Assembly: GCF_035083965.1 (NCBI RefSeq)
Contig: NC_089733.1
Span: forward strand, 6,183,574-6,247,573
DNA: 64,000 nt
Direction of reading: 5' to 3'
From: Branchiostoma lanceolatum
Lineage: Eukaryota; Chordata; Leptocardii; Amphioxiformes; Branchiostomatidae
Position 1 is the first letter of the stretch; each line of letters begins with the position of its first letter. Positions 17,417 through 53,600 of the stretch are shown here, in pieces. A program made the translations under genes and the position numbers. A model generated the notes under the pieces. It saw nothing but the letters and a program-made list of their open reading frames with translations, made no database searches and was not told the origin of the DNA.

Positions 17417-17420
17417 TTAA

Positions 17421-18340
17421 CCCTATCTAGACCGGGCTTTTTTGAGACTTCTTGGACCGGGGGGGGGGGGGCTCTTTCGACCCCCCCATCATAACTTCCA
17501 AACGGTATGCTCTATCATCACCAAATTTGCAGGGAGTGATGTTCACGTGAAGTTTTATAATTCCTGTAAGTTTGGTGACGTTATGACGTAATATGACGTA
17601 ATTATGACGTCATCGATGTGATTTTATTGGCTAAATAGGGAATGCCCATAATATCTAAAAGTATTAAACAAAATAGTGCGTTTTATTGATTGAAAGGTAT
17701 GCCAAGACATATCACGTCAGTGGTGACTAACTTGACGTCAAAATGACGTCGAAGAATGACGTCATGTGTTGTTAGCGACCCCCTGGGATCCGCCATCTTG
17801 GATCGGCCATTTTGAAATTTTTCAAAATACATTTTTTTTCATGTATGATCCCAAATAACAATCAAAATAGACTAAAAGCATTAATCTGAATTATTCTGGT
17901 TAAGAAAATTCCAGGTTGTGACGAATTTAAAGGCAAAAAAGCCTGTTTCTACCGAAGATAATGATTTTGTCCGCCATCTTGGATTTTGAGCGATGACGTC
18001 ATCAAATTAGCATAATTTATGAATATTTAATCATGACAGTTACATTAAATCACATGTGATGTTATACATGTAGGAAGCTAGTGTTGTTGAGAAAGAAAAC
18101 ATTGGAAACAACTATGTTAAAATCGAAATAAGCGAAATTTGCATAAAATGCCTCTTCAGAAACCCGTTGCCATGGCAACACGAAAAATGATAAACTTAAA
18201 CTTTTATCATAATATTGTTGCCAACTAAATTTTAGGAAAAGTCACCAAGTTTGGTTGTCCTACCATACGTCGTTTGGCAGTTATACGATGTCAAAGTTGG
18301 CGCGGGCACTTTTAGCCCCCCCCCCCCGGTCTAGATAGGG
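17421..18340. mobile_element. piggyBac-like non-autonomous element, copy 1
   Basis: It is flanked by TTAA at 17417-17420 and 18341-18344. The ends are inverted: CCCTATCTAGACCGGG and CCCGGTCTAGATAGGG. A TTAA target site and ends starting with CCC are characteristic of piggyBac elements. No transposase frame is present. The interior repeats ATGACGTCAT-like motifs and CGCCATCTTGGAT. It shares interior segments with 37818-39169. Confidence 0.75.
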
Positions 18341-18864
18341 TTAAATTAGAGTCACAAGGGTTGTGAGCATGTAAAGTAATACTTAGAAGTAGGATTCACG
18401 CATATAAAACCAGAGTATGAAACCAAATTTAATGCCGTAAGCCCTAATTTGGGGCGAGTTGGTCGTAAGAGTTTGGGCGAGTACTAGTTGACTAAGATTG
18501 CCACTGTATTGTCTGTTTTTGGACAATAAATACTACTGTCGGTGACATAATCTAGTGTCGAACTGACTTGCTTATTATACTTTAATATCATAAACATAGC
18601 ATAAGGGTAAACTGCTACAGGTGAAATATTGGTAATTGGTAGTTTTTGGTGGCTAGGACAACACAGATTTTTACACAGAATTAGTTTTAGCAAAGAGATT
18701 TTAAATGGTTCTAGAAAATGACCTTTCTCCACAATTGGGGGTCCACAATTTCGGCAATCCCATGAGGTAGTTGAATGGTCGTCAGGTTAATTTGTTCATA
18801 AAGAGCGTCTCTAAGTAATTTGTGACCTTTTTTTAATACTGTGGTTTATTCACAGTAACCGAAC

Positions 18865-19056
18865 ATGAAAGTGCATGTTGTGGCCTCGTTGCTGTGTCTG
18901 TGGGTGACGTCATGCCTGACCTTTGACCTTACCGTTCTCCACACCAATGACTGTCACGCTCGCATCGAGCAGGCGGACGGTAATGGCGGGTCGTGCGGGG
19001 ACAACGAAGCCCAAGCTGGGAAGTGCTTCGGGGGCGTGGCGAGGAGACTCACTAAG
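18865..19056 (+). CDS. NT5E: NT5E-like exon 1: signal peptide and first metal-binding motif
   Basis: It opens at ATG in the context ACCGAACATGAAA. A hydrophobic leader (VVASLLCLWVTSCLT) is followed by the metal-binding TNDCH motif. It ends at ACTAAG|GTATCA in phase 0. Confidence 0.88.
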
Positions 19057-22000
19057 GTATCAGCCAGCGGCTTTTAGTTATTAACTACAGTGGCCGTCAA
19101 TTACAGAACACAATGTACTTGTCGGCCACGGTAACTAACACACAATCTTTAGTGATACCACAAATGCACTGTGTCTTTTATCTGTACTGGATACAGAGTG
19201 GCTACACATGAATTAACTTAGATATAAGTACAAATGCATATGAATAACTCAGCATCTTAAATAAAACGTATGATTTATAATACTTGTTCGAAATTTTTCG
19301 TGTATTTACTTGTTTGTACATAATAAGGGATATCTTTTCCTAGTACGAAATTGAAATTATCGAACAAGCGTAAAGAAATGTGAACAGCTTTGAGTTAGCG
19401 TTTATCTTCATATTGTGAAAAAAATGCGTGATGAATAAGAGCTTATCTCCAATCTCCCGCCAGGAACACAGTCGACCAAGGAGGTTATATATATGAATGA
19501 ATGAATGAATGATTTATTGCACAACAATTGCATCAGTGACAATGTATGGCAAATTACAGACAACATATATATGTCTACATAACCTCCTTGGTGTGACACG
19601 GGATGTGTAGACTGGGAGACAGATTGTGTCATAGTCGGGAGTTCCAAAAACAAAGACTGACGAAGAATCGCTTTGCAAGTTGCATTGCAAAGATAAAAAA
19701 TATTGAAGACAAAATGCTTAGGTGGCGGTTAAGTATGTATAATGGCAGAACGTAGTGCGGATGTTTAATTGAATGTGTAATAGTCCTCATACCAACATGT
19801 GCCGTGGTGTGCGTTACAATGTAATTCCATGGCCAATGCAACACATTTTCAACGTGAGCATTCCTGATACCACCATGTGTGTAGGCTTGTGCGTTACAAT
19901 GTGATTTCATGGCCAATGCAACACATTTTCAACGTGAACATTCCCGATACCACCACGTGTGTAGGCGTGTGCGTTACAATGTGATTTCATGGCCAATGCA
20001 ACACATTTTCAACGTGAACATTCCTCATACCACCATGTGTGTAGGTGTGTGCGTTACAATGTAATTAAATGGCCAATGCAACACATTTTCAACGTGAACA
20101 TTCCTGATACCACCATGTGTGTAGGCTTGTGCGTTACAATGTGATTTCATGGCCAATGCAACACATTTTCAACGTGAACATTCCTGATACCACCATGTGT
20201 GTAGGCGTGTGCGTTACATTGTGATTTCATGGCCAATGCAACACTTTTTCAACGTGAACATTCCTCATACCACCATGTGTGTAGGTGTGTGCGTTACAAT
20301 GTGATTTCATGGCCAATGCAACACATTTTCAACGTGAACATTCCCGATACCACCACGTGTGTAGGCGTGTGCGTTACAATGTGATTTCATGGCCAATGCA
20401 ACACATTTTCAACGTGAACATTCCTGATACCACCATGTGTGTAGGTGTGTGCGTTACAATGTGTTTTCATGGCCAATGCAACACATTTTCAACGTGAACA
20501 TTCCTCATACCACCATGTGTGTAGGTGTGTGCGTTACAATGTGATTTCATGGCCAATGCAACACATTTTCAACGTGAACATACCTGATATACCACCATGT
20601 GTGTAGGTGTGTGCCTTACAATGTGATTTCATGGCCAATGCAACACATTTTCAACGTGAACATTCCTCATACCACCATGTGTGTAGGTGTGTGCCTTACA
20701 ATGTGATTTCATGGCCAATGCAACACATTTTCAACGTGAACATTCCTCATACCACCATGTGTGTAGGTGTGTGCGTTACAATGTGATTTCATGGCCAATG
20801 CAACACATTTTCAACGTGAACATTCCTCATACCACCATGTGTAGGCGTGTGCCTTACAATGTAATTAAATGGCCAATGCAACACATTTTCAACGTGAACA
20901 TGCCTGATATACCACCATGTGTGTTGGTGTGTCCGTTACAATGTGATTTCATTGCCAATGCAACACATTTTCAACATGCAGATCAGGGAGATACGGAATG
21001 CGGATGAAAATGTGATCCTGCTGGACGGAGGGGACCAGTTCCAGGGCACGTTATGGTTCCACTTCTACCACGGCCTGGAAGCTGCGCGATTCATGAACAA
21101 GATGCAGTATGATGCTATGGTAAGTTTGTTTGTTTGTTACAGGTTTGCGTAGCAAAACCTTTTTTGGATCCGTTGGCATGTGTGGTGGCCGCCATCTTGA
21201 ATTGTGACGGCACAGGGTCGCCATACCATTTTATTGGGAGGGGTGTTTTTTGGGGTCGCTTGCGTTCTCTCTATTTTTAACAAATCGGCACACAGCTATC
21301 AGAAATTAAAATCAATTTAGAAAAAAATTCAATACCAATTCATATTTATAAAAAGACCCCGTAATCGCTAAACTAACATAGCAAACCTGAAGTATATGTA
21401 GCACAAATACTTAACTCTAGTTTTGTTTGTTTGTTGCATTGGGTATTGGAGGACGATTGGCACGATATACAAAATCAAAAGAATCATTCAAAATTATTCC
21501 TTTCAGATAAAGTTTAACAACAGGCTATAGGCATGACACCAGCCCTCGGTCGCTGGATAACATGTCAACATAAAGGGATAAAAACTGACCAAATGCAATA
21601 TCTATGACTAAAAATGGGCTGATACTGATTGGCCAGATATGCCTACAAAAATTGTTACTCTCAGAAAGACTTGACCACTATTGAAGAACGTTTCTCAAAA
21701 GTTGGCTTTTTTCCTATTTCAGGCTTTTGGGAACAACGAGTTCGACAACAAAATAGAAGGGGTTGTCCCTTTTCTAAAAAATATCAGCCATCCAATGGTG
21801 TGCGCAAACATCGACGCGTCAAAGGTGCCGAAACTGCAGAGGCTCTTCCAGCCTTCCGTGGTGCTGACGGTGGGGGGGGCAGAAGATAGCAGTGATTGGA
21901 TACGTGACACCCAACACCACCTTTCTGTCCTTCCCGGGCCGTGAGTATCACTGACGTCACACCCAACACTACATTTCTGTCCTTCCCGGGCCGTGAGTAT

Positions 22001-24405
22001 CACTGACGTCACACCCAACACTACATTTCTGTCCTTCCCGGGCCGTGAGTATCACTGACGTCACACCCAACACTACATTTCTGTCCTTCCCGGGCCGTGA
22101 GTATCACTGACGTCACACCCAACACCACCTTTCTGTCCTTCCCGGGCCGTGAGTATCACTGACGTCACACCCAACACCACCTTTCTGTCCTTCCCGGGCC
22201 GTGAGTATCACTGACGTCACACCCAACACCACCTTTCTGTCCTTCCCGGGCCGTGAGTATCACTGACGTCACACCCAACACCACCTTTCTGTCCTTCCCG
22301 GGCCGTGAGTATCACTGACGTCACACCCAACACCACCTTTCTGTCCTTCCCGGGCCGTGAGTATCACTGACGTCACACCCAACACCACCTTTCTGTCCTT
22401 CCCGGGCCGTGAGTATCACTGACGTCACACCCAACACCACCTTTCTGTCCTTCCCGGGCCGTGAGTATCACTGACGTCACACCCAACACCACCTTTCTGT
22501 CCTTCCCGGGCCGTGAGTATCACTGACGTCACACCCAACACCACCTTTCTGTCCTTCCCGGGCCTTGAGTGTCACTGACGTCACACCCAACACTACATTT
22601 CTGTCCTTCCCGGGCCGTGAGTATCACTGACGTCACACCCAACACTACATTTCTGTCCTTCCCGGGCCGTGAGTATCACTGACGTCACACCCAACACTAC
22701 ATTTCTGTCCTTCCCGGGCCGTGAGTGTCACTGACGTCACACCCAACACCACCTTTCTGTCCTTCCCGGGCCGTGAGTATCACTGACGTCACACCCAACA
22801 CCACCTTTCTGTCCTTCCCGGGCCGTGAGTATCACTGACGTCACACCCAACACCACCTTTCTGTCCTTCCCGGGCCGTGAGTATCACTGACGTCACACCC
22901 AACACCACCTTTCTGTCCTTCCCGGGCCGTGAGTATCACTGACGTCACACCCAACACCACCTTTCTGTCCTTCCCGGGCCGTGAGTATCACTGACGTCAC
23001 AACCAACACCACCTTTCTGTCCTTCCCGGGCCGTGAGTATCACTGACGTCACACCCAACACCACCTTTCTGTCCTTCCCGGGCCGTGAGTATCACTGACG
23101 TCACACCCAACACCACCTTTCTGTCCTTCCCGGGCCGTGAGTATCACTGACGTCACACCCAACACCACCTTTCTGTCCTTCCCGGGCCGTGAGTTTCACT
23201 GACGTCACACCCAACACCACCTTTCTGTCCTTCCCGGGCCGTGAGTATCACTGACGTCACACCCAACACCACCTTTCTGTCCTTCCCGGGCCGTGAGTAT
23301 CACTGACGTCACACCCAACACCACCTTTCTGTCCTTCCCGGGCCGTGAGTATCACTGACGTCACAACCAACACCACCTTTCTGTCCTTCCCGGGCCGTGA
23401 GTATCACTGACGTCACACCCAACACTACATTTCTGTCCTTTCCGGGCCGTGAGTATCACTGACGTCACACCCAACACCACCTTTCTGTCCTTCCCGGGCC
23501 GTGAGTATCACTGACGTCACACCCAACACTACATTTCTGTCCTTTCTGGGCCGTGAGTATCACTGACGTCACACCCAACACCACCTTTCTGTCCTTCCCG
23601 GGCCGTGAGTGTCACTGACGTCACATCTCTACATTTCTGTCCTTTCCGGGCCGTGAGTATCACTGACGTCACACCCAACACCACCTTTCTGTCCTTCCGG
23701 GCCGTGAGTGTCACCGACGTCACATCTCTACATTTCTGTCCTTTCCGGGCCGTGAGTATCACTGACGTCACATCTCTACATTTCTGTCCTTTCCGGGCCG
23801 TGAGTGTCACTGACGTCACACCCAAAACTACATTTCTGTCCTTTCCGGACCGTTAGTTTCACTGACGTCACACCTCTACATTTCTGTCCTTTCCGGGCCG
23901 TGAGTATCACTTACGTTACACCCAACAAAATCAAAATTGATATATCCAATATGACAATATAAACCGCAAAGCGATTTTTAGCTTGAGCAGGTACCTTTAG
24001 GATTTTCTTCATTCGAAGCAATGGCAAGACATTGACAATGGCTGTCATCTTTACCAAAACGTTATCAATTTATTATATCATGGCTTTATCAGCGTCATAA
24101 CAAGCCTCCCTATATTCAATATGAGAATATAAAACAATTTATCATATCATGTGTTCTGTTAACGTTATATAGCCAACCTCGTCTTTAATGACGAAGTAGC
24201 AGCCATATCTGCGGAGGTCAGGAGGCTCCAGAGTCAGGGCGTGAACAAGTTCATAGCGCTGGGACACTCGGGCATCAAGGCCGACATCACCATCGCCAAA
24301 CAGGTGCCTGGACTGGACCTGGTCGTGGGAGGACACTCAAACACGTTTCTGTACGAAGGTGAGTAGTATATAGTCAACAGTTGGGGATACAAAAAAAAGC
24401 TTTTT

Positions 24406-24469
<64 letters not shown>

Positions 24470-27400
24470 TGTGTGTGTGCGTTCGGAAAGCCTAAATGAG
24501 TTGTTTTGTTGATATTTGGTATGTGTCGATGTTTTCTCCAGATGATTCGATTATGGGCCCCCCAGCGGCTTGTTATGGTACTGCAGTGGTACTGTTGTGT
24601 ACAAAAAAATTCTGTTGTCCAGTGACTTACCAACCTATCAAAACTCTTCACGGACATTACGTCAATGACATGTTTTGGTTTCTCCAGGCACTCCTCCAGA
24701 AGATGACAAGAAGTACGGAGAGTACCCGCTGGGCATCCCGTCGGAGGTGGAGAGCGGACGGTTCGTGCTGGTGGTGCAGGACTACGCCTTCGGGAAGTAC
24801 CTGGGCTACCTCAAACTCAAGTTCAACGACGCTGGAGAGGTGACCGAGTTTGATGGGAACCCGATTCTTCTGAACTCATCAGTTTCCCAAGGTCAGTTCT
24901 ATTTGTTGAGTGGATGAATTGATGCATAAACGATTGGATAAATGGAGCTTTATTTACGTGTCTAATATTCTGATCTCCATTCCTTGTACTATATTCGAAC
25001 TTGTATGATGACTAGGGGTGGTTACCGGTACATAAAATTCAGGTACGGTCCAGGTCCAGGTCCAGAAGGTCAGGTCCAGGTCCGGACCTGTACCTGTACC
25101 TGATTATAGTCATATTTGATTATATATGATCATATTTTGGAGAGCGAGACACACGTAAAAGTCTCCAAACGTCATGCCTGGAACGATATAATTTCTTAGC
25201 TTTGCACTTTGTCTCAAAGTTATAACTATACTCTCCTCGCCGTCTGTTTACTCATCCTTTAAGTGTTTCTAGATATGATTCACAGCTAACGTCTTCGAAA
25301 ACGACTTCTGTTTTGTATTTTCTTAGACCAGTTATGTAGCCGCCTGCTGGTAGCCTGGTACTATGAATTTTCTAATCGGTCCATAGGCCAGTCCACTGAT
25401 TTTTTACGGACCGGTTTTTTTGGACAGGTCCATTAAGAAATACCGGTTTTGTACCGGTACACGGTACCGGTACACGGTACACGGTACCGGTACCCACCCC
25501 TAATGATGACACATTACAGACGCGGAGACCCTGGCAGAGGTCGCCTCCATGAAAGGTATCATCGCGAACCTGACGAAACAGGAGGTGGGGAGAACACATG
25601 TGTTCCTGGACGGGAGAAGGGAGACGTGCAGGCGGGTACGGCCTCTTTTTTCATCTCTCTCTCTCTCATTTCCATAATAATCATTTTCTAAATCCATGTA
25701 CCACCTCACGGACCCGCTTCTTATATGTGTACTTGCATAGCCAATTTCTGGTACAATATTCGCCAACGGTACGACGGGAAAAGCTTAACGAAAACAGTCG
25801 AGTGACTATCATACATTTAGGAAGGCACACAAAAACGTAGGAAGACTACCCCGTATTGATAATTGGGAATTTCGCAAACTTGGTCGGTATCCACGTACCT
25901 CAAAACACGAATATAGAGGTAAAACAATGTGTGAGAAGTAAAGTACAACGTGTGACAACATTATCTACCGATTTCCTGCGTTTTGAAGATTTTATTATCT
26001 ATATAATGTCCTTGCAGTTACCGATAATACCAATGGCGGCGGTAAAAACGACCGCCGACAACCACTCTCAACCTGGCATGATTTGTCTCTCAAAATGCGG
26101 GAGATTGCGTTTCTGGAGGCTTGAAGATCCAAAATTTCCCGGGGGAGAATCCCCCCGGACCCCCCTAAATTGCGACCGCCTTCGGTGCCCCCCCCCAAAA
26201 AATTTTATTTTATTTTGGTGGACGCACTATGAAAATGGGCTGGCGGGAACGCTGATTGGGATACAGAGCTAGAGCCTTTTGTACTTTTCTAAGAAACATT
26301 GAACTCTGCATTGTTGTAAGGGTCCTCGGGGAATTTCAAGAACTCTATCGCTATAATGTTCGTCCTGCGTTCAGGATTTAGCTTATGGTAAATTTGATAA
26401 AACAAACTGGATTCAAGCATAACAATTTAGTCTCTCATGAATTATAACTTGAACCGCTTCTGGAGTGGAATGCTCCTTTAACGGGACAACATATCTTTCC
26501 CCTAACCTCGAAAAATGAAAATTTAGATAGTTTCGACTAACTGAATTAAATAGAACAAATGTTGCTTGGGATACAGGATACGCATACAGGCACTGAGCAC
26601 TGTATGTGCAACCAGTTTATATTCTGCCCAAATGAGATTGAAGATGAAAGTCACTTTATCATGAATTGTTCAAGATATAAGGATAAGCGCTCAAAGCTAT
26701 TCACCTTTATATCCGCTTGTTCAAATGAATTCAATGCGCTCCGTTCTGTCGATAGATTCAATTACATACTAGGAGGAGATAATCCCTGCTGTGTACAGAT
26801 AGGTATATACATCAAAGAATGTTTGGACATTAGAACAAGCAATGTATAAGTATATCACATGTGATATTTCGATATGTTGCTCTATCCCATATGATTGTAT
26901 GTAATCAAACTCATTTGTATGTACTTATTCGTTTGTATGTATGTATGTAGTAGACCTTACGAAAGTCGCTGTGCTTTTGTTGTGTCAATGAAGATCTCTC
27001 TATATGGAAACAGCAGGACAACGGTCAAGACAAATGTATTTTCTGCCTTGCATGTAGGGAGAGTGCAACATGGGAAATTTGATCACGGACGCCATGGTGC
27101 GACAGAACCTGAAGACCCCGGATGAGGTCAAGTGGGCTGACGTCACCATTGGCATATGGAATAGCGGCAATATCAGAGCACCCATACCCTTCAGGCCTCC
27201 TAATGGTTAGACTTGATTAGTTTCATTTATTAGAATGTATAAAAGACATACATTCAGGGCTATCCAACTAGCTATAAAGGGCTATCCTTGATAACTGGAC
27301 AATATGCAATATAGAATAAAAATGGTTGCATTCGTCAGTGCAGATTGAAATGCGTCAACGGAGATAGACTTTTGGTAGATGATGCAAATTATACAAAGCG

Positions 27401-29650
27401 GGGGGGGGGGGGTATTTTAGATACGGAGACGACCTGTGTTACTAACCTAACAAGTGCTAGAAAATAACGTTATAAAGATATCTGATCACTTTGTAACCTA
27501 TGTACGATATCAAGGCAGGTTGTTCAATACGTACAGTGTTTGTTACCTAGTCTTTACAGATTATTTGTCATCTTTACATTTGTTTTATATGAAAGTTCTT
27601 ACAAGTTATTGTTGTAAAGTCTTACGAAGTTTAGAAGTATCCATTAAAAATGATCACAAGCTTGGCTCTTTGTGACAAAAATGCTCGAGGCGAAAATTCC
27701 CCGACGAATGTTATATTTAATCACCAAGCAGATCCCAACGGTGGCAGGACAGTATGCATGGGATCTCCGGTGGCCGGCTGGATATTCTTTGGTCCATGGA
27801 TACTGTCCTGTCCAGTAAGCATGTATAGTGCTTTGATGTCCTTTCAGCTATCATACTGTACATTTATCTTTCTTTGTTTAAAAGAAGGATAAATGTAAAG
27901 TATGATAGCTGAAAGTTTGTAGGCTTGTTTTGTTGGGACCTCAGAGAACCTGATGTTAAAACTATGTATTTCAATCGTGACGTCACAGGGATTATCACAG
28001 GGGAAGACGTCTTGACGGTCGTGCCTTTTATGAATACTATTGACGTCATCGTCATATCTGGCGAGGCGCTGTACCAAGTGTTCGAGCATTCGGTGGCGGA
28101 GTTACCTGACAGTGCAGCTGGTCAATTCCTCCAGGTCTCAGGTGGGCGTTTTATTTCTTTTTATTTTGGCAAAGATTTTGAACCGTGCTAGTGTATTGCT
28201 ATGTTCAACTTTCGGCTGTTTGTATTGCATACCCGATACACCGCTTCATGGCATAACCATTAGGTTTGTACTGAACAGAACAAGCTGCAAATCTGGACGG
28301 ATTTATTTTGATCGACTCACACTGGGAAGGACCTCTACTCTTTTCGCTAAGTGTGGTGGATTCTTTTACGTGCTCGAGGTGTGGCTCTCCTCAAACACGG
28401 GACGTCCATTTAAAGAATTACCCTAAGGATGTCCCTAACCGAAGCTATAGGTGCTCATTTTCACCCGAGTGAAGTGAAGAAATTCGTGTTAAGTGTCTTT
28501 TCCAAGGGCACAACGTCGACGGGGGGCATGTCAGGGGATTCGAACATAGGACCTATGGGCAAAACACCATGCCATTACGCCACCACCGCAACGACACAAG
28601 TTTTATTATACTGTCTACACCCCCTACTCCTACAATGTTATATAGTCTTAGATAAGAAAGAGAAATTGAAAGTATATTTCTTGTACACCAATGACTTATT
28701 CCGTCTTACAGTTTTCCCATTCTTTACTTTTCTTCAGGATTCGTCGTAACGTACGATCTCAGCAAGCCTGTGGGTGAGCGAGTCGTGAGGCTGGCAGCTC
28801 GGTGTTCGGAGTGCAAAGTGCCTCAGTACCAGCCAGTGGAGAAACAGAAGCGCTACAAGCTCCTGATAAACAGCTACATAGCCGACGGCGGAGACGGTTA
28901 CACCATGATCAAAGACAACACGTTCAGCCGGGATCAAATCGGTAAAGATCTGAGTCTCATTGCTTGTTTGTTTGTTTGTTTGCTTGTTTTGTTTTGTCAC
29001 GCGTTTTCCGCCCAATTCGTCACTGTAAGTTTCTACGCACCACTTTAGCTGTGCGAACCCTCCCCCAATTTTAGCTTCAAGTTGACAATTCAAAATGATG
29101 GCGCCATTTTCAATTTGTGACGTCAGGTAAGGGACTCAGACCTCTTCAAACTAGGGGTCCCCAGAGGCCTAAAAATCAGGCTGAAATCTTTCTTTCTTTT
29201 TACCAAATCTCAAGATGTACACACATTTCAGACAAGAGGGTGTATACAAGTCTTAAATTGCTTCTTCCAAACTCTTTCCTCGCACCCCGCATCAGTTTTC
29301 GGAGTTCTCAGAGGATGCGATCTATATACTCGAATCAACATGGCCTTATTTTGAGAAATATGAAATGATTCCTCTGACGATGACTTAGGTTCATACGCAT
29401 TGGTCATGATAATGTGCAATAGACGATTAATGCATTATACATTCACTTCTTCTCTTACGCTGCAGGATACCTCGACTCAGACCTACTGTTTGCATACCTG
29501 AAGGATGCAAGCCCCATCACAACGGGTCTGGAGCGACGCATAACGTTCGTGGATGGTACTGCAGCCGGGTCCAGCTCGTCCTTGTCCGCAGCGTTCTTTG
29601 TGCTGTTGATGTCTCCAATACTGTCTATTTTCACCGCTCTAGTCGAGTGA
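18865..29650 (+). CDS. NT5E: Ecto-5'-nucleotidase (CD73-like), GPI-anchored
   Basis: Exons: 18865-19056, 20982-21119, 21723-21940, 24173-24358, 24688-24891, 25520-25635, 27058-27205, 27989-28141, 28738-28941 and 29466-29650. The enzyme family hydrolyses extracellular AMP to adenosine at the cell surface. The protein starts with a signal peptide (about residues 1-19). The metallophosphoesterase domain has TVLHTNDCHAR (D29, H31), LLDGGDQFQG (D82), GNNEFD (N114, then N115 where the family has His), ALGHSG (H214) and VVGGHSNTF (H237). The C-terminal nucleotide-binding domain includes AYAFGKYLGYLK-like, NSGNIRAPI and IADGGDGYTMI segments. A hydrophobic tail after a small-residue cluster fits a GPI signal. 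CDS is 1744 bp. Removing one G from the G8 run in exon 3 gives 1743 bp (580 residues, close to the 574 of human CD73), with all phases consistent. Whether that base is real, and whether the missing His abolishes activity, is open. Confidence 0.93.
19475..19592. repeat. Inverted-repeat element with (TGAA)n tract
   Basis: ACCAAGGAGGTTAT at 19475-19488 is mirrored by ATAACCTCCTTGGT at 19579-19592. Between them are ATGAATGAATGA and a TTTATTGCA segment. It lies in intron 1 of the nucleotidase gene. Confidence 0.6.
19795..20975 (+). repeat. 80-bp minisatellite (about 15 copies) ending at the exon 2 acceptor
   Basis: The unit is about 80 bp and contains GGCCAATGCAACACATTTTC and TACCACCATGTGTGTAGG. 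Successive ACACATTTTC anchors fall at 19841, 19921, 20001, 20081 and 20161, and so on, with a few 78-82-bp units near the end. The last copy runs directly into the exon 2 acceptor as ACACATTTTCAACATGCAG|ATC. The array therefore appears to have grown from the intron's 3' end. Open frames inside it are by-products of the period and are not genes. Confidence 0.92.
21723..21940 (+). CDS. NT5E: NT5E-like exon 3: altered catalytic motif and G8 frameshift
   Basis: It reads AFGNNEFDNKIEGVV at the start. A run of eight G at 21872-21879 shifts the frame just before the conserved KIAVIGYVTPNTTFLSFPG, which is intact one frame over. Seven G restores one frame from exon 1 to the stop codon. The frame as given meets a stop at 21942. 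The donor is GGGCC|GTGAGT, and this exon end is the founder of the adjoining 52-bp array. Confidence 0.88.
21905..23930 (+). repeat. 52-bp minisatellite, about 39 copies, each holding exon end, splice donor and CRE octamer
   Basis: The unit combines the last ~36 bases of exon 3 (CACCTTTCTGTCCTTCCCGG), the donor GCC|GTGAGT and intron start ATCACTGACGTCAC. Donors recur every 52 bp from 21941 to 23605 (33 positions). They then fall at 23653, 23704, 23752, 23800, 23852 and 23900, where several units are 48 bp. The copy at 22565 reads TTGAGT and that at 23852 GTTAGT; the others keep GTGAGT or near forms. Nearly every unit has the palindrome TGACGTCA. Sequence variants (CACCACCTTT and CACTACATTT) are interspersed. 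Confidence 0.95.
24408..24480. repeat. (GT)n microsatellite
   Basis: About 70 bp of nearly pure GT in intron 4 of the nucleotidase gene. Confidence 0.95.
25013..25502. mobile_element. hAT-like MITE (GTACCGGTAC family), copy 2
   Basis: The terminal inverted repeats are TAGGGGTGGTTACCGGTAC and the complement of GTACCGGTACCCACCCCTA. The exact 8-bp target duplication ATGATGAC lies at 25005-25012 and 25503-25510. The interior has CAGGTCC and GTACCGGTAC subrepeats as in 432-875. The right end is only 17 bp before exon 6 of the nucleotidase gene. Confidence 0.85.
25990..26235. repeat. Dispersed repeat fragment in intron 6
   Basis: A GC-rich segment with CCCGGGGGAGAATCCCCCCG and a C-run. Its wording resembles repeats dispersed in marine invertebrate genomes, but I cannot name a family. 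No coding role is seen. Confidence 0.35.
26550..26850 (+). pseudogene. LINE ORF2 C-terminal remnant
   Basis: The open stretch reads CNQFIFCPNEIEDESHFIMN, then CSRYKDKRSKLF. This is the Cys-His tail (C...C...H...C) common at the end of reverse transcriptase ORFs of jockey/CR1-type elements. It is truncated upstream and lies in intron 6 of the nucleotidase gene. Confidence 0.6.
27841..27915. repeat. 34-bp-arm hairpin in intron 7 (miniature element or miRNA-like precursor)
   Basis: Arm 27841-27874 (CTTTCAGCTATCATACTGTA onward) is complementary to 27882-27915, with one mismatch and one G-U pair, around a 7-nt loop. Size and pairing are within the range of microRNA precursors. Near-perfect short palindromes are also common MITE products, so function is not claimed. 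Confidence 0.7.
28210..28597 (-). mobile_element. tRNA-derived SINE, family A, in intron 8 of the nucleotidase gene
   Basis: On the minus strand it has an A box-like GGCGTAATGGCATGG and a B box-like TGTTCGAATCCC. The family body follows (GTGCCCTTGGAAAAG-like, GTGAAAATGAGCACC, GTTAGGGACATCC, GAGCCACACCTCGAGC). It shows many substitutions relative to other copies. Confidence 0.7.
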
Positions 29651-32059: not shown

Positions 32060-35000
32060 TTACTTCATGTAAGCTCTCTCAGACTGGTCAGACTTCATCG
32101 CCCCTCCCCACGGGCGGTGTTTCTTGCTGGCCTCTCCTAGCTTTCCGCCGCGCTCTGGGGACAGCTGCAAAACGTAAACAAATATACAGTACTCTATCTT
32201 GTTCATTTGCATTAAGTTTTTGTCTTATGATTTCATTTTTCTCTGAGAGGAATTTTTATGTTTACCTTTACGGAAGTGGAACATTATTTCTTCTTCGTCT
32301 AAACAAATAAGGTCAATGACCTTGACAAGACGGCTGTCCCCAAGGTTACTAAAGGTGCATTAGACACCTTTTGGTGTTATATTACATTATGTAGCAAGTG
32401 GCAGGACAGAGCTGGAGGGGCTGGTCACCATATACTGGTATGCAAATGTGTGTGAGTAGGAATAAACAGAGCAGAAGTTTGTAAAGGCTAGACCATGTGA
32501 AGGTAAGCATTGTGTATTTGCTTGCAAATGTCATCTTTGGTGTGATGGACGATATATGTCTGATAAAATGTACGTTCTCCGCTTAATGTGAAAAGAACAA
32601 GAACAACAACATTGGTCATCCATATTTGACAACAGTGACTACCTCTTCCGATATAGCCCGGATGTGGTGAGGTTCAAATCCACAACAGCCGCCGATGTAC
32701 CTGACCCCGAGGTCAAAGGCCGCTCGGACGAAGTGGTTGACTTCAAACCGGGTCATCTGGCGGGGTTCCAAAGCTGGCAAAGTAATACAAAGATCATAAA
32801 ACTAGCAAGAAACTTGGGACTTATCATTAGCCACTGCCTCCAGAGAAGAAGTCAAACGTTAACTCCCCAGTAATGTACGAAGAAACATCAGGTGGAATTA
32901 TAGTGTTGACACTTGTTACCTTTTACGTTATTGTATCCGTACATGTATGTGCCCTCGCTATTAGCCTACTGACATCAATTTGCAAATAAAGAAGGAAATG
33001 GTACCAGATCTTAATATGATGAATACGTTAGGGCGTTGTTGAATAATCGTGCTAACTGTCCATTTCTACTATTAAGGTTACTATCAACAGGCCTATTAAC
33101 ACTGGTCAAATGTTAAAAGTTACTTGATAATTTCTTGAGTAGAGCTAAGATGAATTTTCTTACCGAACGGAAACTCCGGCAGGATCCCCCATCCGTTCTT
33201 AGTCTGCTCGGTCTCCGGTGAAAGGAAGCCGTTTGGTTGGACCATCAGGTACGGGGACAGTCCTTCCTTCTCCAGCGCATCCTTCATCATCTTTATAGTC
33301 TTCAGACAGGTGTTCGCATCAAACCGGCAGTTCAACCCAACCACGTCAGCACCTTTGAACGGAAATGTATGGTTATGCTACGTACGGCTATGTCCGTATA
33401 GTAGGCGGTCTAGCCCCGGACAGGCCCCGAAGCCAAAAATTTGTCCTGAAGGACTGCCGGATACGGGGTACCTCTAGGTGTTCTCACGATTAGCTTACGG
33501 CGTGTATTTGCTACCAGGTTGATTTTGACTCTAAGTTAGAAAAACCCCGGGGCCCGGCCGTGCCCCCAAATAGCCTGATAGCCACAGGATGTCCCATGGG
33601 GCCACGTAGGGGTCGCGACTGAAAGTGCAACCATGGAACAGCCCGTAGACTACTCGTCGGTGCCCTTTTTTTCAATTGTGACCGTAGCATAGGAGGTATG
33701 AATCGTAGAATTCGCCCAAAAGTGAATAATTAGCAAGAAGAGTTCTTCCGCGGGAAGTTTTATATTTCCCCCTGCGCCTGGCAAATGAATCCCTATGGTC
33801 GCCAAACTCCGGATCCTTGGCAAAATCATTTTTCCTAGAGCCAGCGTAGTTAGTCTGGTAGAGACTATGTAAGAGGCACTAAAGTGAAAGAGTCTCTGGT
33901 AGAGACTCTAGTAGAGACTCTGAGTCTCTGGTAGAGACTATGTAAGAGGCACTAAAATCAGATTGAAGTACAAAGTGTGAAACGAGAAATAAGTCAAACG
34001 TGATGGGAGGTTGGTATCGCCCCCCGTCCCGGCACAGGAAGCACTCACCGGCTTTGGCCATCCTGACGGCACACTCCCCGGGAGACACACCGCTGTCATC
34101 TCCAGTGGGACCGATCCGCAGGGTGCAGGCTACAGGTTTCCCTTTTCCCTTCAACGCTTCGATAGCCCACTCTGCCTCCTCCACGTACCCAAAGAACTGT
34201 ACAGATACGTTGGTTCGAAAAAAAAGAAGTTTCCTACTATACTTTTCTTTTCCATTTACTTCACATCACCACGGAACACGGATCGAGAGCCATCCAGATG
34301 TTTAGGTTCACACTAATAACTGGATTGAGATGACCGATGTCTGTTTACCCCTAGTCTTAGAAACTTTAAGATTATGCCAATCAGCAAAGCAATTACAAAG
34401 AAGCTTGTTCCATAACGATATCGATACAATTTCTATCAATGCCACCTCAAAGATCACTTGAGTTACCTCAGCCAATAGGAAGTCCACAACGCAAATGATT
34501 TTACAGTGGGTGACGATGGGGTTCACATGACATACCTCAGCCAATAGGAAGTCCACTTCTTGCTCCATGAAGCTGTCCACTTGTTTGCTGAACTCCTGTT
34601 GCACGGCCGCCTTACCTTTCCCCTGAGCGTAGGACGGAGTGTTGGATAACCCCCCACAGATCAGGACATCCCCATCGCCAACAACCTCCTTCACTATGGC
34701 ACAGGCCTGGTTGTTTAACTCTTTGCACTGGATGTGAAAAACACATCGTGATATTTTGTGTCCTGAAATTGTCTATAAAACCGCACGTTCCTTTTAATGT
34801 ATGGTAGGGCGTAGTTGACCTCTAGGTATGACCTAAAGGTATATAAACTCTATACCTATTGCTGAATTTGACAAAACAAAACACGTTTTCGAAGACCAAG
34901 GAAATGCTGAATTGCATAATATATGCTGAAGGTATATGTTACGTCTGTTCGACGTTCGCAAATGTTGGCCCCCTAAATGCTTAGGCCACACCAAGTTAAT

Positions 35001-37376: not shown

Positions 37377-37625
37377 GCCTCCTTCGCAGACTTCCTATGA
37401 CGGCAGCGTATATTTTGGGGGGGGGGAGGTTCTCTAAAGGGAGTTGTGTAGCCAAGGGAGTCGGCTTTAGGTTCTCTAAAGGGAGTTGTGTAGCCAAGGT
37501 CCCTTTAGGTTCTCTAAAGGGAGTTGTGTAGCCAAGGGAGTCGGCTACACAACTCCCTTTAGAGAACCTCCCCCCTCTCCCAATATATACGCCGCTGTCA
37601 TAGGAAGTCTGCGAAGGAGGTTAGA
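37377..37625. mobile_element. MITE with AGCCTCCTTCGCAGAC ends and internal triplication
   Basis: The terminal inverted repeats are about 40 bp (AGCCTCCTTCGCAGACTTCC at the left, its complement at the right). Inside, AGGTTCTCTAAAGGGAGTTG occurs three times directly and once inverted. Confidence 0.8.
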
Positions 37626-50658: not shown

Positions 50659-53600
50659 AAAACCCACCCATATATCTACAGCTCTCAATGATAGGGTAAT
50701 TGTATGATACGATACGAGCAACATCATTAAATTACGTCTATATTCAACAGGACTGATGAATAGACCAATTAATGTGCTTGTATTCGTTTGTATTGCATAC
50801 CCAGTAAACCGCATCATGGCGTAACACACCAGGTTTGTACTGAACAGTCCAAGCTGTATATCCGGACAGATATTTTTTATCCAATCACAGCGGGAAGGAC
50901 CCCTACTCCTTTTAATAAGCGTGGTGGGTGTGGCTCTCTCAAACATGGGACCTCTATTTAACGTCCCTAACCGAAGCTAGGTACTCATTTTTACCTGAGT
51001 GAAGTAGGGAAAGTCGTGTAAAGTGCACCGTCAACAAGACAAATCAGGGGAACCCGGATTCGAACCCAGGACCTCTGGGTTCTGAGCCAAACACCCTGCC
51101 ACTGCGCCACAGCGTCGCCCCACGTGGCAGTGCTCATATGCCCAAATTAAAAAAAAGAAAAAAAGAAATCAATCTTCCTTCATCTAAGTCGCAAATATTA
51201 GTAGCATGGTAGTGGAAAGAGTACGCAGGATACACATGTAAAATATGTACTTGTAGCCTCTATCTAACAGGAAATCTTATTATACACAAGTGTTTATCTT
51301 AGAATGCGTTGCATGGAAAGACGAAAATAGGTACCGGGTTCAAGTAACGAAAACAGCACATTGGAACGAAAAAGCCCCACCTTTTTTTGTGTTTGAAGTC
51401 CCTCGGTTACTATATTTGGAAAAAGAATCTATATCTGTACATTGATGACAGAAACGGCCTCGTATGACAAAAAAATGTCATAAATAGAAACGTTGTTTGC
51501 ATCATCTGCTATTTTCACAGGTTATATCGACATACATCCGTTTGTTTGGCATTTTAAACACTTGATAACCCTAAGCAATCATCCTGTCGTAACCCTTGTT
51601 TGATAGTTAATATTTACCTTTTGATAGGAGGACCACCCATTCGGTGTTAAGAATGCCATTTTCCAAGCAGAGGTTTCGATCGAGGCGCTAGCAGTGGCCG
51701 GGATTATTAACGCTGCCCTCCTTTCACCGGTACAGTGACCTAGTCGGCTAGTGGCTAGAGTGTTCGCCTTGCATACGGTGGGTCGTGAGTTCGATCCCCG
51801 GTCGGGTCATACCAAAGACTTTAAAAAAATGGAACATCCTGCTTTCTCTGCTTAGCACTCAGAATTTGGGAAGAGTACGGAAGTTAAACACACATCACTA
51901 CTAGCGGACCAGCGCTAGCCGGGCCCCCTGCTGTAGTGACTTGCACAATTGTGTGGCCCAAGAAATGGAGATGGGCGCCACCCCTATGTGTCTTATCAAG
52001 ACGTCTGAGATATTTTTATTTTTATTTTCACCGGGAAGGGCAGCGACACCAATTTTAAAAGGAAAGCCCCGCCCTGATGCGTTCTATTGCAGAAGTGAAG
52101 GGAGGGGGGGGGGGAGCGTTAATTTTCTCGGCCTCTACTAGCCCCAATCGGCTTGGGGGGTAAAGAACGATTCATAGTCAGAAGCTAGTGTGTTAAGCCC
52201 CCCTCTCATTAGACCCGCGGCACGCTGGCGGCGTCGCTGCGGCCGATAAAATTGACAAAGCACTCAACGAATTTCATCTTTAAAAAAAACGATTTTTTTA
52301 ACGCTTTGTGTGTTTTGTTGTCTTTTTGGTCATACTTGTACGTTTTGAATGATATTCCCATTATAAAGATTCTATAAAGTCAAGGGTAACACAAATCTTG
52401 TTTTCATAGGACGCAGCGACGCCGCCAGCGTGCCGCGGGTCCAGTGAGAGGGGGGCTTTACACCGAAGGAAGGTCTTACCGGTTGTACAGTGTAGATACT
52501 GACCTTAGCAGACTTCGAGGTGGGCTTTTCGGGGCTAATAATTTGCTGATTTTGAAATTCTAATGCCATATCAGTTTAATTTGTATCCCTTTTTTCTGGC
52601 TGGCAGAGAAACGTTACAAATATCGGATAAGAGATATGTAGTCATTTTAACACCTGGATGGGGTGAGGAAAGTCGTGCATTTCTCAAGGGCACAACATCA
52701 GTGGCATGTCGGGGGATTCGAACCCTGAACCTCTGGGTTCTAGGCCACCAAACACCCTAACCTACACCAACACGACGCCACCTACCTACCGACCCTAATG
52801 TTTCCAGCACCGTAATAGGAAACACAAGATTAATTTTCATTGGCCTTATCTATAAGTGTGTGTACTTGACTCACCAGACCCGCATCCCGGCGGCATCGGC
52901 GATCTCTTGACACGTGGCGGGCCCCTCAAGCCGCCCCAAGGCCTCGAACAGCCCGGCCCGGGACCCCAAACCAAGAAACAAACATACAAATAAACAACCT
53001 CTACTCACCGGACCCGCATCCCGGCGGCATCGGCGATCTCCTGACACGTGGCCGGCCCCTCAAGCCGCCCCATGGCCTCGAACAGCCCGGCCCGGGACCC
53101 CAAACCAAGAAACTAACATACAAATAAACAACCTCTACTCACCGGACCCGCATCCCGGCGGCATCGGCGATCTCCTGACACGTGGCCGGCCCCTCAAGCC
53201 GCCCCATGGCCTCGAACAGCCCGGCCCGGGACCCCAAACCAAGAAACTAACATACAAATAAACAACCTCTACTCACCGGACCCGCATCCCGGCGGCATCG
53301 GCGATCTCTTGACACGTGGCTGGCCCCTCAAGCCGCCCCATGGCCTCGAACAGCCCGGCCCGGGACCCCACGGACATGGCCATGCACACGAACCCCGCCT
53401 TCACGATATCGAACATCTTCATGGCGAACTCCATGGTGGACTCCTCCCTTTCCTGTAGCACGTATTCAAAACGTAAGGGCCCTGTCATACTTTTGCGTAT
53501 ACACAAGCCCGCATGAGTTGCGTATTAACATGTTTTTTTGGTTTAGGTTAAGTTTGCAGCCGAAGAAGTTATTTCTTTGGTTTGATTACCTGACCGCACA

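Follow-up and report, generated by a model that had tools for sequence, protein, structure and literature searches.

A tandem array of 39 exon-intron border copies in a lancelet ecto-5'-nucleotidase gene, probably a large mirage minisatellite

The DNA analyzed here, referred to as the window, is a stretch of 64,000 nucleotides from Branchiostoma lanceolatum (assembly GCF_035083965.1, contig NC_089733.1, positions 6,183,574 to 6,247,573 of the forward strand); all positions below are counted from its first letter. On the forward strand it contains an ecto-5'-nucleotidase (CD73/NT5E) gene of ten exons (18865..29650), which runs from a signal peptide to a hydrophobic C-terminus with GT-AG borders and matching phases, and which carries a tandem array in which the end of exon 3, the 5' splice site (donor), and the start of intron 3 are repeated. 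When the joined ten-exon translation, which carries an X at one frame break, was compared with solved 5'-nucleotidases, including those of snake venom and human CD73, residues 1-532 of 562 were aligned with a best E value of 4e-157, and 32 distinct solved sequences matched at an E value of 1e-20 or better. Pfam recognizes PF00149 (Metallophos) and PF02872 (5_nucleotid_C) in the same translation. Together, the match to solved CD73 and the Pfam domains bear out the identity assigned to the gene in the original prediction, which described the array. The hydrophobic C-terminal tail may represent a glycosylphosphatidylinositol-anchor signal.

Exon 3 (21723..21940, forward strand) is 218 bases long, of which the final 39 (21902-21940) constitute the first exonic copy in the array. 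Exon 4 (24173..24358, forward strand) follows an acceptor of the sequence tatatag/CC, located where it had been predicted and in phase with exon 3. A run of eight G within exon 3 (21872..21879, forward strand), overlooked in the original prediction, shifts the reading frame, and owing to this run none of the 39 donors yields a full-length protein as the gene is assembled: translation stops after 187 residues via donor 1 and after 183 residues via each of the 38 later donors. Rescue of the shifted frame by a later donor is ruled out, since all 38 stop at the same place and donor 1 soon after. We take the G run to be either a sequencing error or a null allele.

The array itself was delimited by Tandem Repeats Finder at 21902-23927 on the forward strand, with a 52-bp period, 39.3 copies, 95% matches, and a score of 3527. 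Cutting it at the intron start gave 39 intron-start copies, of which 37 read GTGAGT, one reads TTGAGT, and one reads GTTAGT. The copy that has lost its GT is the donor of unit 13 (22565..22570, forward strand), leaving GT in 38/39 copies, and GTTAGT belongs to unit 38 (23852, forward strand); apart from the authentic donor, 36 GTGAGT sites and the one GTTAGT site thus make up the potential decoys. The 9-mer GCC/GTGAGT (the slash marks the border) occurs in 37/39 copies, and 32/39 share the 11-mer that surrounds the authentic donor. These counts agree with the earlier description of about 39 tandem copies of the exon end and donor, presenting some 37 near-identical donors. Two details of that description were revised. 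A unit length of 52 bp was given for all units and applies to 33 of the 38 complete ones, the remainder being 51 bp (unit 34) or 48 bp (units 33, 35, 36, and 38). The unit does hold the end of exon 3, the donor, and the intron start, as stated, with an exonic part of 39 bases rather than about 36, followed by the first 13 bases of intron 3. Twenty of the 38 units are identical to the consensus, and the exonic part of the repeat has a single mismatch to the consensus unit, at 21906, where the exon has G and all 38 units have C. An array of such length and identity is not a chance product, and its presence as a real feature of the sequence is confirmed.

The authentic donor of intron 3 is the first in the array, GTGAGT at 21941..21946 (forward strand); from it alone among the 39, the CD73 frame reads on into exon 4 without a stop. 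In the frame that follows the G run and matches CD73, reading past donor 1 gives FPG-REYH-stop for 38/38 later donors. The claim that the first donor alone is productive therefore stands in the CD73-matching frame and falls in the frame as assembled, on account of the G run. The CD73 alignment passes the exon 3-4 joint without insertion, so homology favors the use of donor 1. Each step to a later donor would lengthen exon 3 by about 52 bases, from 270 bases with donor 2 up to 2177 with donor 39. The computed energy of pairing between the unit donor and the U1 end is -6.9 kcal/mol, which ranks fourth strongest among the gene's nine donors (-4.1 to -11.8 kcal/mol); the unit donor is ordinary in U1 pairing and not an unusual site. 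Because the donor 11-mer is shared by so many copies, site strength cannot single out donor 1.

We also considered what else the array offers to the splicing machinery. All 39 AG dinucleotides in 21941-23945 lie inside donor copies; therefore, the array supplies later donors but no separate acceptors. Mini-exons that would use the AG of a donor copy as their acceptor were considered and rejected, as the pieces would be 47 bases in the common units, which is not a multiple of three. A fold of three units showed no unusual RNA structure relative to shuffled sequences (z 0.26; 126 of 200 shuffles were as good), and an Rfam scan of the window gave no match at or above threshold.

Differences among the units are unevenly distributed along the array. 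The mean number of differences from the consensus is 0.77 in units 1-13, 0.54 in units 14-26, and 4.58 in units 27-38, placing the divergent edge at the 3' end. When units 1-12 are paired with units 13-24, the 12 pairs show only 4 differing positions in all, which looks like a block duplication. This pattern of turnover is typical of minisatellites. By count of variable sites, the donor is without special conservation among the units: 3/9 sites of the donor 9-mer vary, compared with 12/43 in the rest of the unit, and 40 of the 52 circular 9-base windows contain three or fewer variable sites.

To compare the units with the coding sequence, we counted base changes relative to exon 3 in full codons only, in 33 of the 38 units, leaving out the five that carry indels. 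Eight distinct changes were found. Four of them are widespread (present in three or more units: 33, 9, 9, and 3 units), and all four are synonymous; the other four are rare (one or two units), and all alter an amino acid. Given that 31 of the 108 possible changes are synonymous, the chance of 4/4 synonymous changes is 0.0068, although two of the four widespread changes co-occur; the widespread and rare classes differ with a two-sided Fisher P of 0.029. These numbers hint that variants pass through the exon and are filtered there by selection, the end of exon 3 exchanging sequence with the array.

Repeats of the same kind occur elsewhere in the window. Screening the 64 kb for 14-base words that recur within 400 bases gave 12 clusters, at least three of which span a donor. 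One is the NT5E array. Another is a minisatellite on the reverse strand (52869..53370) with 4 copies of period 134, comprising 92 exonic bases and GTGAGT, in a methyltransferase-like gene; the exon of this array matches PF21320 (Rv2258c-like HTH), and a methyltransferase domain lies further along the gene (45075-44512). There, too, the later donors (3/3) give a stop, and three of four full-codon changes are synonymous (P 0.063). A third is a duplication on the reverse strand (34464..34556) with 2 copies (34556 and 34487) of period 69, comprising 21 exonic bases and GTA, in a betaine-homocysteine S-methyltransferase (BHMT) gene, where the flanking exons match solved BHMT (E value 3.5e-35) with a joint free of insertion. 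As a separate observation, the second BHMT donor would add 23 residues in frame and could make a second protein form. When the 12 clusters were placed at random in 20,000 runs, at least three spanned a donor in 0.25, 0.48, and 2.3% of runs, assuming 20, 30, and 50 donors, respectively, a rough simulation in which the number of donors is assumed and which was devised after the fact. That two unrelated genes in the window carry similar repeats suggests a tendency of the genome rather than a mechanism specific to NT5E.

Boundary repeats of this type have a name. Minisatellite-like duplications of exon-intron boundaries in two amphioxus globin genes are called mirages in PMC3087553, after earlier work on Adh3. 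We consider the NT5E array to be a large, young mirage minisatellite of which the first donor is used and the rest is near-neutral intronic passenger DNA, and we assign this reading a probability of about 0.78. Its history may have begun with the tandem duplication of a short segment across the border of exon 3 and intron 3. Expansion to 39 copies and homogenization would then have proceeded by replication slippage or unequal exchange. In the transcript, donor 1 (21941) is probably joined to exon 4, as homology and the reports on other mirages suggest; the CD73 and BHMT alignments cross their respective joints without insertion, which fits use of the first donor. Two things would most likely decide the choice: exon definition, which sets exon 3 from its own acceptor as a unit of 218 bases, and the order of synthesis, in which donor 1 comes first. 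The remaining 36-37 GT donors would be carried along in the intron, nearly neutral in effect. Exon 3 would keep its end within the array, with exchange between the two still possible, and the variants that spread would mostly be neutral to the protein, as the few variants at hand suggest.

Several observations weigh against this interpretation. Use of donor 1 is deduced from homology and from the mirage reports and should be regarded as no more than probable. The synonymous pattern consists of only eight changes, with the cut between widespread and rare set after seeing the data, and when the eight are pooled, 4/8 are synonymous, which is not significant (P 0.17); moreover, the 5/38 units with indels are excluded from the count. 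The difference at 21906 separates the exon from 38/38 units and sits three to five bases inside the left edge of the repeat; therefore, exchange, if any, does not reach that base. Finally, a count of variant runs makes the donor block look less variable than the rest of the unit (3 runs in 9 sites versus 46 runs in 43 sites), although the figure of 46 is inflated, most of it stemming from a shared deletion and from columns that are linked in two types of unit.

A different possibility is that the array acts on expression through its length, as the original prediction proposed in suggesting that donor choice, or decoy binding of U1, tunes the level of mRNA. The decoys would compete with donor 1 in cis, and a longer array would produce more transcripts ending in the REYH stop, which would be degraded, leaving less enzyme. 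In its favor, the 36 GTGAGT decoys share the 9-mer of the real site, every one of the 38 later donors runs into an identical premature stop, and the array can lengthen exon 3 without offering separate acceptors. We nonetheless consider this quite improbable: the donor is not specially conserved by variable sites, and the window has similar repeats in two genes unrelated to NT5E. Its trans form, in which the decoys titrate U1, is implausible because U1 is very abundant. In addition, the published mirages are reported to give no aberrant mRNA (PMC3087553 and PMC3902484). The proposal is thus left unsupported. A broader version appears no likelier. It would have the array serve both as a heritable, fast-changing rheostat, whose length, perhaps specific to the individual or tissue, sets the share of CD73 transcripts wasted on poison donors, and as an intronic reservoir of past exon 3 alleles (GTC/GTG, ACC/ACT, ACC/ACA, and TTC/TTT) that could be copied back through exchange between exon and array.

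We also weighed whether the copy number, or the array as a whole, is an artifact of assembly. The G run that breaks the exon 3 frame may be a base-calling error, and mirage arrays can have wrong or variable lengths in assemblies, according to PMC3087553 and PMC3902484. Against this, variants are scattered among the units, divergence is graded, and the block duplication has private changes; the window also holds two smaller repeats of this type. An artifact is accordingly very improbable. Least probable of all, and in our view extremely unlikely, is a transcriptional role, in which the palindrome TGACGTCA, present once per unit at a spacing of about five helical turns, would make the array an intronic enhancer. 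We take TGACGTCA to be the consensus cAMP response element; it has 37 copies in the array and arises only at the joint between units. The motif was picked out after the fact, and it is common throughout the window, with 14 copies outside the array compared with 0.82 expected from shuffles of the whole window, which looks like a genome habit. Four of the outside copies sit in a transposon-like element.

That element, upstream of the nucleotidase gene at 17417-18344, is 928 bases long, has perfect 20-base inverted ends starting TTAA-CCC, and contains the four copies of TGACGTCA; we presume it to be piggyBac-like. We rejected this upstream cluster of TGACGTCA as evidence for a promoter, as it lies in the transposon-like element. 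Several other copies of TGACGTCA outside the array fall in exons of the nucleotidase gene. Intron 1 of the gene holds a further minisatellite on the forward strand (19807..20975), 14.6 copies of 80 bp without exon sequence; its end lies 6 bases short of exon 2, and a degenerate unit thus forms the 3' splice site of intron 1. It was rejected as an acceptor-side mirage, since its unit and the first bases of exon 2 are not similar (468 of 2000 shuffles were as good). Elsewhere in the window, short repeats of about 40 bases at 37389-37546 form inverted copies within a longer hairpin-like element that also has inverted outer ends.

The NT5E array, in our reading a large mirage, would be a good natural test of choice among dozens of identical splice sites. 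Dozens of donors with one 9-base signal separate the strength of a site from its choice and leave position, exon definition, and order of synthesis as the remaining influences. Classical in vitro work found that the intron-proximal site is favored when all sites are occupied. Such a choice here would yield dead transcripts only, and the splicing pattern would be informative either way. The locus is also a possible case of coding DNA evolving jointly with a minisatellite. Among the sources consulted, the available part of PMC8724738 does not state the intron-proximal donor rule, and that of PMC2632668 does not mention minisatellites.

Comparison with known mirages (PMC3087553 and PMC3902484) places the NT5E array among them. 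Mirage units measure 10-72 bp in Adh3 and 150-160 bp in the globin genes, and mirages show length and somatic instability (PMC3087553). Data on Adh3 and reverse transcription-PCR of the globin genes suggest that splicing is not impaired by them (PMC3087553). Two further amphioxus genes that bear mirages, PGBD5 and troponin C, come from PMC3902484, likewise with no disturbance of splicing reported. The globin mirages of BflGb6 and BflGb9 resemble the NT5E array in having boundary repeats, a splice signal in many units, concerted evolution, and divergent ends (PMC3087553). BflGb6 carries its repeat on the acceptor side, as 3 or 6 units that measure 150-160 bp, whereas the NT5E array has 39 intron-start copies of 52 bp on the donor side, and in BflGb9 an exon is followed at its 3' border by a duplicate of 157 bp compared with 39 x 52 bp in NT5E (PMC3087553). 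The Adh3 mirages of Branchiostoma floridae and B. lanceolatum also span boundaries, have a range of unit lengths within which 52 bp falls, and are unstable in length, including somatically (cited via PMC3087553 and PMC3902484). In lancelet PGBD5, repeats of 60 and 108 bp overlap splice sites, as in NT5E, and their copy number differs between assemblies (2 or 7, 3 or 6); unlike the NT5E array, these arrays are short and imperfect, and part of one is annotated as exon (PMC3902484). Intron gain by tandem duplication of an AG/GT proto-splice site (Rogers, cited in PMC3087553) also copies a splice signal, as the NT5E array does; we rejected it as a description of the array, in which every AG lies in a donor copy and no new intron or exon has arisen. 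The NT5E array spans an exon-intron boundary, bears splice signals in its units, is concerted inside with a divergent edge, and has counterparts in more than one gene, and it thus fits the mirages on every feature tested. The kind is already known, and, without claim to a record, the NT5E array is an unusually long-looking member of it.

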